Source: Bacteriovorax sp. MedPE-SWde
Lineage (GTDB): Bacteria; Bdellovibrionota; Bacteriovoracia; Bacteriovoracales; Bacteriovoracaceae
DNA length: 64,000 nt
NCBI GenBank assembly: GCA_001874305.1
Contig: MPCU01000013.1
Location: 62,001 to 126,000 of the forward strand
Reading direction: 5' to 3'
Below, piece after piece: positions 37,723 to 43,285 of the stretch. The position numbers were made by a program, and so were the translations under genes. The notes beneath the pieces are model-generated. The model made no database searches. It worked only from the letters and a program-made list of their open reading frames with translations, and had not been told where the DNA came from. Position 1 is the stretch's first letter. The number at the start of each line of letters is the position of its first letter.

Positions 37723-39162
37723 ATGAAGAAACCTAGTCTCTTAGTTTCATTGATCCCCATTTGCTTACTCGTATTCCTCCTTATAGTGAACGTTATTATC
37801 TTTAAAGATGACGCAACAGGAGGAGCAAACCAGACCGCTCTCCTACTGTCTGCATTTGCTGCTGGCTTGATTGGTGTTTATGGACTCAAGGTAAAATTCA
37901 AGACGATTGAAGACGGAATTGTTAACTCTATTACGAGTTCATTGTCGGCAATTACAATTTTAATTATTGTTGGAGCTCTCATAGGAACATGGATTCTTGC
38001 AGGAACAGTTCCAGCAATGATTTACTATGGCCTTAAACTTATTAATCCTACTGTCTTCTTACCTGTCTCTTGCATCATCTGCTGTATCGTTTCTATTGCA
38101 ACGGGTAGTAGTTGGTCAACAACGGGTACTGTTGGTATCGCCTTATTAGGAATTGGTGAAACTCTTGGTCTACCGACTGGACTTGTCGCCGGTGCGGTTA
38201 TCTCAGGAGCTTATTTCGGAGATAAGATGTCTCCATTATCTGACACAACAAACTTAGCTCCAGCAATGGCAGGAACAGATTTATTTACACATATTAAACA
38301 TATGACCTATACATCCGGGCCAGCAATAATCATTGCCATAATAATTTATGCCATCATCGGAGTTAGTTATACTGGAACAACAATAGATCAACTATCAATT
38401 GAAAACTTAAGAGTAACATTAGCAAGTAATTTCAACTTAAGTCCTTGGTTATTCTTCCCCCCTATCATAGTCCTTATTTTAGTAAGAAAGAAAGTTCCAG
38501 CACTACCTGCAATTACCATTGGAGTCTTTGCTGGTGTCGCTACGGCTTTAATCTTTCAACAAGATCTAATATATAAGATGACAAACTTTACTGGTGGAAT
38601 GAAAGGCTATTATGAAGTTATTACCAAGGTCTCTTTTTCTGGTTTTGATATTGAGACTGGTCACAGGATTATAGATAAACTTCTAAACAGAGGTGGAATG
38701 AAAGGAATGCTAACGACAGTTTGGCTTATTTTATCTGCAATGATTCTCGGTGGAACACTTGAGGCGACAGGAATGTTACACAGTATTGCTTCTTCAATAT
38801 TAAAGCTTGTTCGTGGAACAGGATCTTTAATAGGTGCGACATTAGGTAGTTGTATTTTTCTTAATGCGACAGCTTCAGATCAGTATCTTGCTATTGTAGT
38901 TCCAGGAAGAATGTTTAGAAGTGCTTATGATAAATATGGACTTGAACCGGAGAATTTATCGAGGGCCCTAGAAGATGCAGGAACAGTTACCTCTGTTCTA
39001 TTTCCTTGGAATACTGGTGGTGCCTACAATGCTTCAGTTCTTGGGGTTCCAACACTGACATACGCACCGTATTGCTTCTTTAATTTATTAAGTCCAATAA
39101 TCTCATTATTCTTAGCAAGTATGAATTGGACAATCGTTAAGAAAATAGAAGAAAGAAAATAA
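37723..39162 (+). CDS. nhaC: Na+/H+ antiporter NhaC family
   Basis: NhaC exchanges Na+ for H+ across the inner membrane and helps in pH and salt balance. The 479-residue protein is very hydrophobic, with about 11-12 spans. It contains typical NhaC segments such as SCIICCIVSIATGSSWSTTGTVGIAL, ISGAYFGDKMSPLSDTTNLAPAMAG and PWNTGGAYNASVLGVP. An AAGGAAGGA run precedes the ATG. It is divergent from grpE and convergent with a secreted-protein gene over a shared terminator. A sodium antiporter suits a marine or brackish relative, which is only suggestive. Confidence 0.92.
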   Translation: MKKPSLLVSLIPICLLVFLLIVNVIIFKDDATGGANQTALLLSAFAAGLIGVYGLKVKFKTIEDGIVNSITSSLSAITILIIVGALIGTWILAGTVPAMIYYGLKLINPTVFLPVSCIICCIVSIATGSSWSTTGTVGIALLGIGETLGLPTGLVAGAVISGAYFGDKMSPLSDTTNLAPAMAGTDLFTHIKHMTYTSGPAIIIAIIIYAIIGVSYTGTTIDQLSIENLRVTLASNFNLSPWLFFPPIIVLILVRKKVPALPAITIGVFAGVATALIFQQDLIYKMTNFTGGMKGYYEVITKVSFSGFDIETGHRIIDKLLNRGGMKGMLTTVWLILSAMILGGTLEATGMLHSIASSILKLVRGTGSLIGATLGSCIFLNATASDQYLAIVVPGRMFRSAYDKYGLEPENLSRALEDAGTVTSVLFPWNTGGAYNASVLGVPTLTYAPYCFFNLLSPIISLFLASMNWTIVKKIEERK

Positions 39163-39163
39163 A

Positions 39164-39186
39164 AAAGGCTCCATTAGGAGCCTTTC
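39164..39186. terminator. Bidirectional terminator after nhaC
   Basis: A perfect 9-base-pair stem (39164-39172 with 39177-39185), with a 4-base loop, is flanked by A's on the left and T's on the right. It serves nhaC on the + strand and the secreted-protein gene on the - strand. Confidence 0.85.
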
Positions 39187-39187
39187 T

Positions 39188-39976
39188 TTATTTAAGTTCA
39201 ATATAAATATAAGGTTCATCAACCAGCATATTGTCTGGTGCATTTGCTGCTAATTCCGTAAATAACTTCGATCTAACACTAAAGAATCCGGCCCTAACAT
39301 CATCAACTCTCACTACAACTAGCTCACTCGCTACATCGTAATCAATTTTTCCATTGAAGCTTACATCAAAACCAAAAGACAGGTTACTTGAGAATGATCC
39401 TTCAACATACCCTTTTGAAATATCAAGTTGAATATTATTTAAAATAATTTCAGAAGTCTCTACACCATCTTCAACTAAGCTCTTAAATGAGTTTGTTTCA
39501 GAGAGAAAAGAGAAACTGTACACAGAAAGCTCTGAGTTGCTCAAACAATTTAAAACGAGATCTTGTGTAGCATCTGTATAAGTTTTTGTTCTTTTACAGT
39601 TTGCAGACCCTCTTCTAATGTCTGTTGAGTAACCAATACTGCTTGCATTTAGTCCGTAAAAATCTAGTTCAATCTTTCGCTTGTTATTAACGAAGTTCAT
39701 ATCATCGACATTGATATAGTCAGCATCTCTTACAGCAAATAAAGTTAAATCTATTTGAAATTCTTTTCCATCAAAACCAAACGACAGAAGACCATCTTTA
39801 TTTTCAACAGAAAGAGTAGGATTACGATAGTTACCAAAACCATCAATATTCAGATAGTCTGCGCTTGCCGTTCCAACAGGTGATTTATATTGTGCATTTA
39901 AGCCTTGAAACTCTCCATCAGGAAGTGAGGCCATTGCGAATGTACTTATTAAAATTGCTACGATTAGTTTTTTCAT
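39188..39976 (-). CDS. Secreted protein of unknown function
   Basis: A signal peptide of about 16-17 residues (MKKLIVAILISTFAMA) precedes about 245 residues of beta-rich sequence without a membrane span. The C-terminus reads LVDEPYIYIELK. Two Cys in the middle (near SANCKR and LVLNCLSN) could pair. I do not recognise a family. Its general style (short beta-strands, DFYGLNASSIGY, a final strand of I/Y/E) recalls the larger secreted protein at 50.7-52.1 kb. It is preceded by a separate gene for an ABC1-fold lipoprotein, 53 bases upstream. Confidence 0.65.
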   Translation of the reverse strand: MKKLIVAILISTFAMASLPDGEFQGLNAQYKSPVGTASADYLNIDGFGNYRNPTLSVENKDGLLSFGFDGKEFQIDLTLFAVRDADYINVDDMNFVNNKRKIELDFYGLNASSIGYSTDIRRGSANCKRTKTYTDATQDLVLNCLSNSELSVYSFSFLSETNSFKSLVEDGVETSEIILNNIQLDISKGYVEGSFSSNLSFGFDVSFNGKIDYDVASELVVVRVDDVRAGFFSVRSKLFTELAANAPDNMLVDEPYIYIELK

Positions 39977-40029: not shown

Positions 40030-42105
40030 TTATTTAGTTTTCCAAAAGTGCTTTACAACAGCTGAACAAGAGTCACTTAACGAAGCCATTCCAACTCTTA
40101 ATACTTCCGTACGTGATAGGGGGAAGTCATATCCAAGCTTAAAGTATCCACGTCTAATATTATCTTTTAAGATTTCTTCAACGACGTCTTCCGCCAACTC
40201 ATCTTCCCCAGCGAGTTTACCAAGTTGTGAAACTAAGCTCCCACCTCTTGCAAGAGTTCCAAGTTGATCGTTATCGAGATGCCCTTCTTTAAGACCCCAA
40301 ACAATCCATTCTTCAGCTTTTGAATATTCACTCATCTTCTTTTCGATATCTCTAACTAATTTTCTTCTCTGCTGCCTTGATACTTTCCTCTCAGAAATCA
40401 TACCATCTGCAATTAATCCAGCATTGTGAAACTTTGCGCCAGATCCAATTAATAAGAAAGATTTACGTGTATCCATTCTCAGTTTTTCGCTCATTCCAAA
40501 ATCAAAGAGCGTTACTTTTGCTGCACTTTCTGTCGCAGTGTTAACGGTAAAGTTTCCTTGATGAAGATCACTATGAACAAAACCAGTATCTATTAATCCA
40601 GACTGAAACCAGGTCTTCATAATTCCTTCAGCAATATTTCTTCTCATTTTTAGATCATTTAATTCAGAAAACTTTTTCCCAAATTTTACAAACTCTTGAA
40701 GGTGTAGAGTTGTTCTCTTTCCTTTTGCAGGCTTGTATACATCAGGAACATCAATCTCTACATTATAGTATTTCTTCTTTCCTGTTTTAACCTTTATCGT
40801 TCCTTCGTAAGCTTTAGCCGCAAATTCTTGTTTCTTTATTGCATCTTCAATATCTAATTCAGATCTAAGAAATACCGCAATACTTTCAACTAATTTACGT
40901 GCTGTTGGTAGGAAGTCATCAGAGAGTTCTCCCTTTTCGGCCATTGTCTCAATAAAGTCTCCAAGAATCTTTATATCGTCATTTGCTCTTGCTTCAATAT
41001 CTGGTTTTAAAAACCTTAAAGCGATATCAATTTTCCCGCTCTCTCTTTGTAGTTTTGCCTTATTAACTTGTGCCATTGTCCCTGTTCCAAGTGGGTTATG
41101 GCTAATATTAGTAATTTTAAATCCAGCCGTATCTTTATCTACAATCTCTTTCACAAGGTGATATGGAACGGCTTTTCCATCATCCTCTAGAATTTCGATA
41201 ACATCTTGAAGACCTTGGCCCATACTAGGTTCTTTACCTAGCTGCTGAAGAGTCTTACCAAGACCAGGCCCAGAGTTTTGAAACATTAATGTAACAAGCT
41301 CCATTTTTTCAGGCTCACGTCCAAGGACAAGAATATCACTTATAATATTTTTAATTACATCACGATCTACATTTGAATAATAGTAATCAAGAAAGAGAAC
41401 CAAAAACTTCTCAGCCTCTTCATTACCTAGATTTAGTTGTCCCGACAACTTTAACTCTGTTCCTAGTTTTTCAATTTTCTTAAAATAATCATTTAATCTT
41501 TCTTCAAACTTATTAACTACAAGAAGGGCTACATCTCTTTGTGACCCAGAAGATTTAACTGCCGCAATAAAATTGGAAATATCATCATTTACAACAGCTG
41601 ATAGTTCATTACCAGCATCCACTTGATCAAAATTCATTGACGCTAATGTTGCATAGATTGTATCTGCTCTTACTGAAACTGGAACCGTTTCCACTTTATT
41701 CTTCTCTGTTAGCCATCGAACTTCTTCCTTTAGTGTCCAAGGAGGAGGTGCCTGTATTTTATAAAACTTAGAAGAACTAATCGGAAGCTTTTCTGTTTTT
41801 ATATTTAAAACTACTTTTGAAGTATTCTTTTCTAAATACGACTCTGCATTTTTAAATATTTCAAATTTCTCATCATCTGTTTTAAAGCTTGCTTCAAGCA
41901 AGTATTTCATAAGGTTTGTTCTTACAATATTTACTTCGGCCTTTCTCTCTGGAGATAAGTTCTCCCAAGCAATAGCACCGGCCTCTCTTACTTGGGCAGT
42001 AACAGAACTTGGAGTTCTTAGTTTTGATTTGTTTGAGTGGTTATTTTCGCTACAAGAGATGAGTAGCGTTGAAATCATAATTGAATATATAAATGCTATT
42101 TTCAT
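40030..42105 (-). CDS. Exported ABC1/UbiB-fold kinase-like lipoprotein
   Basis: The C-terminal 350 residues carry the ABC1/ADCK/UbiB atypical kinase pattern: an Ala-loop equivalent GTGTMAQVNKA at about 340-350, an ExD motif in SELDIEDA (about 415-422), catalytic HSDLHQGN at 511-518 and DFG at 535-537. The lysine of the usual VAVK strand appears to be Arg364 (IALRF). The N-terminus MKIAFIYSIMISTLLISCS is a lipoprotein signal with Cys18, and GAGGT 6 bases before the ATG supports this start. UbiB-family members normally sit in the cytoplasm or organelles and use ATP; this one should be outside the inner membrane. Residues 30-280 are a helical domain I do not recognise. Whether it binds nucleotide is open. 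Confidence 0.8.
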   Translation of the reverse strand: MKIAFIYSIMISTLLISCSENNHSNKSKLRTPSSVTAQVREAGAIAWENLSPERKAEVNIVRTNLMKYLLEASFKTDDEKFEIFKNAESYLEKNTSKVVLNIKTEKLPISSSKFYKIQAPPPWTLKEEVRWLTEKNKVETVPVSVRADTIYATLASMNFDQVDAGNELSAVVNDDISNFIAAVKSSGSQRDVALLVVNKFEERLNDYFKKIEKLGTELKLSGQLNLGNEEAEKFLVLFLDYYYSNVDRDVIKNIISDILVLGREPEKMELVTLMFQNSGPGLGKTLQQLGKEPSMGQGLQDVIEILEDDGKAVPYHLVKEIVDKDTAGFKITNISHNPLGTGTMAQVNKAKLQRESGKIDIALRFLKPDIEARANDDIKILGDFIETMAEKGELSDDFLPTARKLVESIAVFLRSELDIEDAIKKQEFAAKAYEGTIKVKTGKKKYYNVEIDVPDVYKPAKGKRTTLHLQEFVKFGKKFSELNDLKMRRNIAEGIMKTWFQSGLIDTGFVHSDLHQGNFTVNTATESAAKVTLFDFGMSEKLRMDTRKSFLLIGSGAKFHNAGLIADGMISERKVSRQQRRKLVRDIEKKMSEYSKAEEWIVWGLKEGHLDNDQLGTLARGGSLVSQLGKLAGEDELAEDVVEEILKDNIRRGYFKLGYDFPLSRTEVLRVGMASLSDSCSAVVKHFWKTK

Positions 42106-42166
42106 AAGTTTACCTCATGAACTTATCGGCACATATATTACTTAGCTAAAGTATTAGTTTTATTAA

Positions 42167-43285
42167 CTAAAACTTATTTTTAAGTCTGAGAAATAACTCA
42201 TCCATAAGCGAGCCCAATATTAAGAATCCCTTACTATTAAGCTTAACCTTATTGTCTTCTAAGGTCGCTAAATCACGTTCGCTCCATTCTTTTGCAATAG
42301 TTGAAAATTCAGATTCAGAGAACTTGTTCAGACTAAGTCCATCATTTATTCTGAGACCCATATAGACCTCTTCTAGAAATAACTCATCTTCAGTTAGCCT
42401 TTCTTCAACAATTTCAGCAGATTTAACCTTCCACTTATATCTAAACTTCTCTTCTTTTAAGAAGCCTGTAGCCGACGGACCTATTGCTGCAACTGAATTC
42501 ATTTTCCAATATTCTTTATTATGTTTAGACTCATGTCCCTCAAGAGCAAAGTTTGAAACTTCATAGTGAAGAAAACCTTTTGACTGTAGATAGTTTGAAA
42601 CTTCCATATACTCTTTCTCTATATATTCATCATCAGGTAAATCTTTTGCATGAATATAGTGATCCTTAACAGTCAGAATATAGAGGCTTATATGTTTAGG
42701 GCTATATGAAAGAATTTCATCCAACTCTTTTAGTATATTTCTATTATATTTTTCAGAGAATGGTAGACCTAACATAAAGTCTACTGAGAAATTAGCCTTT
42801 ATTTCAGAGAACTTCGCTAGAGTTGTATATACATCATCGATATTATGGACTCGATCTAATAGTTTTATAAATGTCGAATCGAGGGCCTGTATCCCAAGAG
42901 AGAATCTATTCACTCCTAGGTTCTGCCAAGCCAACAATGACTCTTCAGTCCAGCTTCCAGGGTTAACCTCTAGAGTAAATTCAGCGTTTTGTGATAAGTT
43001 AATATCATATTCTCCGAGTAGCTCACTCAGTTTACTCGCTCCTCTCTCACCCCAAAGAGATGGTGTCCCTCCTCCAATATATAGTGTCTCAAGGTCGGCC
43101 CATTCGTATGCAAGTTCGCTAAACTTTTCGTCATGCGCCTTAAACATAGCACTAAGGAGTACTTCGAAGTTATCTACGTCCGCTTCTGACTTAGGAACAT
43201 TCTTATAAAAGTCACAATAGTTACAAAGATGTCTACAAAATGGATAATGTAAATAAAGTGATTTTACGGCCAGTTTTTCTTGCAT
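42167..43285 (-). CDS. hemW: Radical SAM protein HemW
   Basis: HemW is a radical SAM heme-binding protein linked to heme delivery, related to the coproporphyrinogen oxidase HemN but not itself that enzyme. The motif YLHYPFCRHLCNYCDFY gives Cys17, Cys21 and Cys24 for the 4Fe-4S cluster. The HemN-specific extra Cys after the motif is missing, which supports HemW. The next motif LYIGGGTPSLW and the later FSLGIQALD fit too. The length of 372 residues is normal. It is divergent from the M16 peptidase gene across a 63-base gap. Confidence 0.92.
   Translation of the reverse strand: MQEKLAVKSLYLHYPFCRHLCNYCDFYKNVPKSEADVDNFEVLLSAMFKAHDEKFSELAYEWADLETLYIGGGTPSLWGERGASKLSELLGEYDINLSQNAEFTLEVNPGSWTEESLLAWQNLGVNRFSLGIQALDSTFIKLLDRVHNIDDVYTTLAKFSEIKANFSVDFMLGLPFSEKYNRNILKELDEILSYSPKHISLYILTVKDHYIHAKDLPDDEYIEKEYMEVSNYLQSKGFLHYEVSNFALEGHESKHNKEYWKMNSVAAIGPSATGFLKEEKFRYKWKVKSAEIVEERLTEDELFLEEVYMGLRINDGLSLNKFSESEFSTIAKEWSERDLATLEDNKVKLNSKGFLILGSLMDELFLRLKNKF

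Follow-up and report, generated by a model that had tools for sequence, protein, structure and literature searches.

A predicted exported, lipid-anchored variant of the ABC1 proteins is encoded in the window studied here, a stretch of 64,000 nucleotides from Bacteriovorax sp. MedPE-SWde. In this variant a glycine-type nucleotide loop is coordinated with an arginine in place of the key lysine. We consider it real and unusual, and it is undescribed in the open-access literature searched, in which no paper on a bacterial exported ABC1/UbiB protein, or on this gene in Bdellovibrio, was found. The gene and the elements at its 5'-end are as follows.

40030..42105, minus strand: coding sequence of the exported ABC1/UbiB-fold lipoprotein, 691 amino acids (open reading frame, PF03109, AlphaFold2 model, structural match to COQ8A)
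42112..42116, minus strand: Shine-Dalgarno-like GAGGT 5' of the start (direct sequence reading)
42052..42105, minus strand: predicted lipoprotein signal peptide with lipidated Cys18, MKIAFIYSIMISTLLISC (sequence, lipobox in orthologs, Lgt/LspA)

The open frame comprises 694 amino acids, and since its upstream stop lies just three codons before the ATG, the start site is nearly forced. The N-terminus, MKIAFIYSIMISTLLIS followed by Cys18, contains the lipobox LISC with Ser as the +2 residue. This lipobox is retained by the orthologs L005, L006, L008, L010, and L071-L079, and the genome encodes Lgt, in two copies, as well as LspA. Residues 18-31 were modeled with pLDDT values below 50, which fits the flexible linker expected of a lipoprotein. 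The strong lipoprotein signal that had originally been predicted from the sequence is thus upheld by the lipobox and Cys18, the near-forced start and the retention in orthologs. Export by Sec and anchoring in the envelope with the protein facing the periplasm are well supported predictions; the periplasmic location itself is inferred.

The match to the ABC1 profile PF03109 (E 8e-22, 78 bits against a curated cut-off of 22.9) is shared by all 60 relatives. In the NCBIfam UbiB equivalog model the protein scored 68.6 bits, far below the cut-off of 487.55. Judged by its sequence, it is a member of the ABC1 superfamily and not a UbiB in the strict sense. An AlphaFold2 model, calculated with a 60-row alignment as input, reached a mean pLDDT of 87 and a pTM of 0.84. 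Its top structural match was COQ8A (Z 17.3, rmsd 3.7 over 341 residues, model residues 269-653), followed by mycobacterial ABC1 proteins (Z 12-15) and RIO kinases (Z 11-12). A COQ8-type kinase-like fold with the helical N-extension is present in the part matched to COQ8A, and the ABC1/UbiB fold named in the original prediction was borne out by both profile and structure. Upstream of this fold the protein carries an additional region.

41308..42012, minus strand: extra all-helical N-terminal region, residues 32-266 (secondary structure of the model, alignment)

In the alignment this region is without counterpart in the canonical UbiB of the host (L001) or in E. coli UbiB. No strongly hydrophobic segment was found in the window protein beyond residue 45, the maximum 19-residue mean being 0.99.

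The active-site positions are listed below with their frequencies among 60 exported relatives.

41245..41256, minus strand: K284-T-L-Q287, KxGQ-type motif with Gly replaced by Leu (K and Q 60/60; third position L, F, I, V, or M)
41068..41088, minus strand: nucleotide loop GTGTMAQ, residues 340-346, against AAASIGQ in canonical UbiB (alignments)
41014..41016, minus strand: Arg364 at the position of the VAIK lysine (aligned to the lysine of E. coli UbiB, host UbiB, and COQ8A)
40852..40860, minus strand: ExD motif E416-L-D418 (at 416, E 50/60 and D 10/60)
40552..40575, minus strand: catalytic loop HSDLHQGN, residues 511-518 (D513, G517, and N518 60/60)
40495..40503, minus strand: DFG, residues 535-537 (D535 and G537 60/60)
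40246..40248, minus strand: Arg620, proposed equivalent of COQ8A Arg611, the partner of the catalytic Asp (60/60; by position and PMC4718504)
40066..40068, minus strand: Cys680, near the C-terminus (58/60; cysteine positions)

The motifs HSDLHQGN, DFG, and ExD, which had been read from the sequence, were all found in the window protein. Departures from the canonical site were seen at three places. A complete KxGQ motif is absent, KTLQ retaining the lysine and the glutamine without the glycine. In the nucleotide loop, where an alteration had also been predicted, the GTGTMAQ segment aligned under AAASIGQ; the Ala-rich AAAS is absent and replaced by GTGT, the motif GTGTMAQV spanning residues 340-347. 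Finally, the proposed exchange of lysine for arginine was followed by aligning the protein with E. coli UbiB, the canonical UbiB of the host, and the printed part of human COQ8A. Arg364 falls exactly on the invariant lysine, which is part of VVIK in E. coli UbiB, VVLK in the host UbiB, and VAMK in COQ8A. An invariant lysine, named beforehand as the finding that would speak against the exchange, does not occur in the Arg364 column of this alignment. Apart from Cys18, the mature protein has Cys680 as its sole cysteine, and the exported relatives are otherwise poor in cysteines; a disulfide-linked dimer, ligand binding, and modification are candidate roles of this residue.

Some congeners and relatives encode full-length orthologs, at 54-69% and 33-36% identity. 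A single-sequence query of genome contigs yielded one ortholog, from Bacteriovorax sp. DB6_IX, and a profile built from eight orthologs and searched against 369 genomes of the window's phylum recovered many more relatives of about 650-860 amino acids. Within the Bdellovibrio-like genus g71, which we take to be Bdellovibrio, 21 out of 24 genomes carry a member of the clade. The occurrence is patchy in the window's genus (3 of 6 genomes), which indicates that the function is dispensable. We also considered, and abandoned, a connection with periplasmic predation, as several genomes of predator genera were without the protein. No relatives were found in the viral contigs searched, and the plasmids searched yielded nothing beyond incomplete matches to ordinary ABC1 proteins. 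The window's genome encodes two further ABC1 proteins, the canonical UbiB (L001) and a divergent cytosolic one (L002). The latter (G000:C9:132105-132674) is a cytosolic-looking frame of 493 amino acids in which HxDxHxxN reads QEDSNISN, and is likely to be a degenerate ABC1 protein. The orthologs L080 and L083 from draft genomes contain one in-frame stop each (TAG and TAA), being either pseudogenes or the result of assembly errors.

The predicted export is a property of the whole clade. Among its 60 members, defined by 200 bits or more in the profile search, 58 carry an export signal (median hydropathy 3.1) as against 0 out of 48 canonical UbiB proteins (median 1.5, maximum 2.16), as scored by our own heuristic (hydrophobic core, charge, cleavage motif, best start) rather than SignalP, fixed for all sequences but with a threshold picked after the scores had been seen. 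The two members without a signal were L115, whose reading frame is cut by a contig end, and L106, whose N-terminus is ambiguous. Other lipobox-bearing ABC1 proteins, a search for which had been proposed, exist in the window's genus, in genus g14, and in a few others; the signals in g71 are of the signal peptidase I type. Strongly hydrophobic stretches located after residue 45 occur in 42 out of 48 canonical UbiB proteins versus 1 out of 60 members of the exported clade. The membrane anchor thus appears to have shifted from C-terminal helices to the N-terminal signal or a lipid.

To our knowledge, characterized bacterial UbiB proteins work inside the cytoplasm or at the cytoplasmic side of the membrane, which would suit a cytoplasmic UbiB whose N-terminus merely resembles a signal peptide. 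This explanation is highly improbable in view of the loss of the C-terminal UbiB membrane helices, of a signal that is of the lipobox type in some members and of the signal peptidase I type in others, and of its retention throughout the phylum despite low conservation in this part of the protein. The two closest orthologs share 74% identity in the kinase domain but only 36% over residues 1-30.

Although mean column identity was only 19% over the 60 relatives, nine columns were invariant in the 60 exported sequences: K284, Q287, W499, D513, G517, N518, D535, G537, and R620. The rows of this alignment had been selected for carrying a signal. Seven of the nine columns fall within the 19 active-site positions (p about 1e-10, a guide only, the sequences being related). 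This invariance of catalytic residues at such low overall identity suggests that the nucleotide site is under selection. Because the lysine and glutamine of KxxQ, the catalytic Asp, the Asn, the DFG Asp, and Arg620 are conserved in 60/60, a bare scaffold is unlikely. The original prediction had offered an envelope protein with a kinase fold that simply binds lipids or quinones; this reading is weakened by the same conservation of Asp513, Asn518, Asp535, the KxxQ lysine, and Arg620. In a true pseudokinase the fold would serve only for static binding, be it of a nucleotide, a lipid, or a protein partner, without turnover. The arginine at the VAIK position, the loss of the KxGQ glycine, and a periplasmic setting with little ATP are what such a protein might be expected to show. 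In pseudokinase families, however, residues for catalysis or metal binding have usually disappeared from some lineages, and D513, N518, and D535 are present in every one of the 60 divergent sequences. We regard a pseudokinase as rather unlikely.

The exchanges in loop and lysine position are themselves conserved. Residue 364 is Arg in 52, Lys in 7, and Gly in 1 of the 60 exported relatives, and residue 342 is Gly in 54 out of 60. When loop type and residue 364 were considered together, 55 exported proteins combined a Gly-loop with Arg, 34 cytosolic proteins an Ala-loop with Lys, and 5 exported proteins a Gly-loop with Lys. Three rows with Gly-loop and Arg were labeled cytosolic; their N-termini are cut or ambiguous. 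In a quick tree, supported by SH-aLRT values only, the Arg clade stands on a fully supported branch and the exported Lys proteins are placed between this clade and canonical UbiB. The simplest order of events that we infer would be export, followed by the change from Ala to Gly and then by that from Lys to Arg. Further exported ABC1 proteins (L015, L032, L127, L128, L131, and L151) form a second set that retains the VAIK lysine and has Ala-type or AAGT loops; they apparently mark a transition from cytosolic UbiB to the Arg clade.

An enzyme at work where ATP occurs, the prey interior for instance, was the second candidate of the original prediction. An active kinase outside the predator cytoplasm, which would draw on prey nucleotides and phosphorylate proteins, sugars, or lipids in either the predator envelope or the prey, would account for the invariant catalytic residues and for a GTGT loop resembling that of canonical kinases. 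G342 corresponds to Ala339 of COQ8A, in which the A339G mutation inverted the preference for ADP over ATP and enabled autophosphorylation (reviewed in PMC4718504), and ATP transport by Bdellovibrio is the subject of a 1986 report which appears among the references of PMC4834554. Furthermore, 24 out of 60 relatives also matched APH profiles and 18 out of 60 Pkinase profiles. On the other hand, the VAIK lysine is lost in 52 out of 60 sequences, the Lys and Gln of KxxQ are invariant and come from the segment which, in COQ8A, occupies the active site and keeps protein substrates out, and the presence of the gene does not strictly follow predator genera. We consider such a kinase unlikely.

Among known systems, the protein is structurally nearest to COQ8A. 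With human COQ8A/COQ8B (ADCK3/ADCK4) it shares the kinase-like fold, the KxGQ helical extension, ExD, the catalytic Asp and Asn, DFG, and probably a conserved Arg, which in COQ8A (R611) pairs with the catalytic Asp (PMC4718504). COQ8A is located in the mitochondrial matrix and has an Ala-rich loop and the VAIK lysine, whereas the window protein is a predicted exported lipoprotein with a Gly-type loop, Arg364, KTLQ, and the extra N-terminal helical domain. Bacterial UbiB/AarF proteins (E. coli UbiB and the host paralog L001) have PF03109 and the ordered motifs in common with it, but are not exported and possess C-terminal membrane helices, the VAIK lysine, and an Ala-rich-type loop. The mycobacterial ABC1 proteins Rv3197 and MSMEG_1954 share the ABC1 domain and gave the best PDB sequence-profile match (E 1.2e-7; structural Z 12-15); unlike the window protein, they show the Ala/Ser-type loop PVASASIGQV and the VAIK lysine in the printed alignment. 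In its predicted setting it resembles yeast Cqd1 and Cqd2, UbiB-family proteins which face the periplasm-like intermembrane space. These differ in being proteins of the mitochondrial inner membrane, and the likeness is one of predicted setting. As the nearest functional precedent, Cqd1 and Cqd2 affect the distribution of CoQ and phospholipids, for which kinase-like residues are required (PMC8346625, PMC10214851). The kinase-domain lysine K275 of Cqd1 was tested by mutation; the window protein has Arg364.

By analogy with Cqd1 and Cqd2, we tentatively favor an envelope-facing, nucleotide-dependent protein that handles lipids or quinones. Following Sec export, Lgt and LspA would anchor it to an envelope membrane, and the complete COQ8/UbiB-type kinase-like fold behind the extra helical domain would face the periplasm. 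Conservation suggests that a nucleotide and a metal are most likely still bound, at a site in which the loop is of the Gly type and Arg364 stands where a lysine is usual, and to which the invariant KxxQ lysine perhaps contributes. As in the Cqd proteins, a nucleotide cycle may be coupled to the gripping and releasing of a membrane lipid, such as a quinone, an isoprenoid, or a phospholipid. Two points count against nucleotide dependence, namely that ATP is scarce in the periplasm and that a Lys-to-Arg exchange at the VAIK position normally cripples kinases. The patchy occurrence in the genus, the weakness of the lipid-transfer resemblance in the downstream protein, and the lack of a shared gene context over the phylum also weigh against the favored reading. 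An extracytoplasmic source of nucleotides would be needed, for which prey contents are one candidate.

MenD is present in the host, one congener, and two g71 genomes, and no Ubi hydroxylases above cut-off were detected in these four. The host thus looks like a menaquinone producer, and a role of the window protein in ubiquinone synthesis is unlikely. For Bdellovibrio bacteriovorus ubiquinone-8 has been reported, yet the full pathway could not be demonstrated by genome analysis (PMC13386864), which makes the uptake of prey-derived quinones a testable but speculative idea. An extension, which we consider improbable, is that exported UbiB-type proteins form an envelope machinery with which predators take quinones or other lipids from prey membranes, fueled by nucleotides of the dying prey.

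The genomic neighborhood contains the following elements.

42167..43285, minus strand: HemW/HemN-like radical SAM gene, upstream and co-directional with a 61-bp gap (Pfam PF04055, PF06969)
39188..39976, minus strand: gene of an exported all-beta protein of 262 amino acids, downstream and co-directional (gene adjacency in other genomes, model)
39161..39188, minus strand: intrinsic-terminator-like hairpin 3' of the 262-amino-acid protein gene (consensus scan only)

The three genes run in one direction with short gaps. The HemW-like and lipoprotein genes, whose order is repeated in genome G003, form a probable operon. The lipoprotein gene and the 262-amino-acid protein gene are adjacent in 3 genomes, including G003 and G004, and lie near each other in G012. 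The family of the 262-amino-acid protein is common in the taxonomic family also where the lipoprotein is absent, with paralogs in much of it. It is characterized by two invariant cysteines, and some members weakly resemble DUF4403/LmeA (TULIP). DUF4403, a predicted TULIP lipid-transfer domain (PMC6791001), was weakly matched by 10 of 30 relatives (best E 1.4e-4), the detailed matches being below cut-off. The window's own copy gave no Pfam match, and comparison of its model (pLDDT 88.5) with known structures gave no significant match. Hence, there is only a hint of a TULIP lipid-transfer protein. Across the phylum no conserved gene context was found for the exported clade. Four genomes of genus g14 have the lipoprotein gene in divergent orientation to the gene of an exported 308-amino-acid protein with a HEARH metallopeptidase-like motif (L137:4361-5287; L140, L147, L148).

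Since relatives across the phylum are predicted to be exported and share one altered active site, our data suggest an envelope version of the UbiB/COQ8 machinery in the phylum of predatory bacteria. Which reaction the ancient and widespread UbiB/COQ8 proteins carry out is still under debate. A natural clade predicted to lie outside the cytoplasm that has regained a Gly-type loop and exchanged the key lysine for arginine while keeping the other catalytic residues amounts to an evolutionary mutagenesis experiment on this mechanism, and prompts one to ask how an ATP-type site would be fueled in such a compartment. Purification is difficult in this family, and the clade supplies members that are free of membrane helices; it further provides a testable connection with the movement of lipids or quinones across an envelope.
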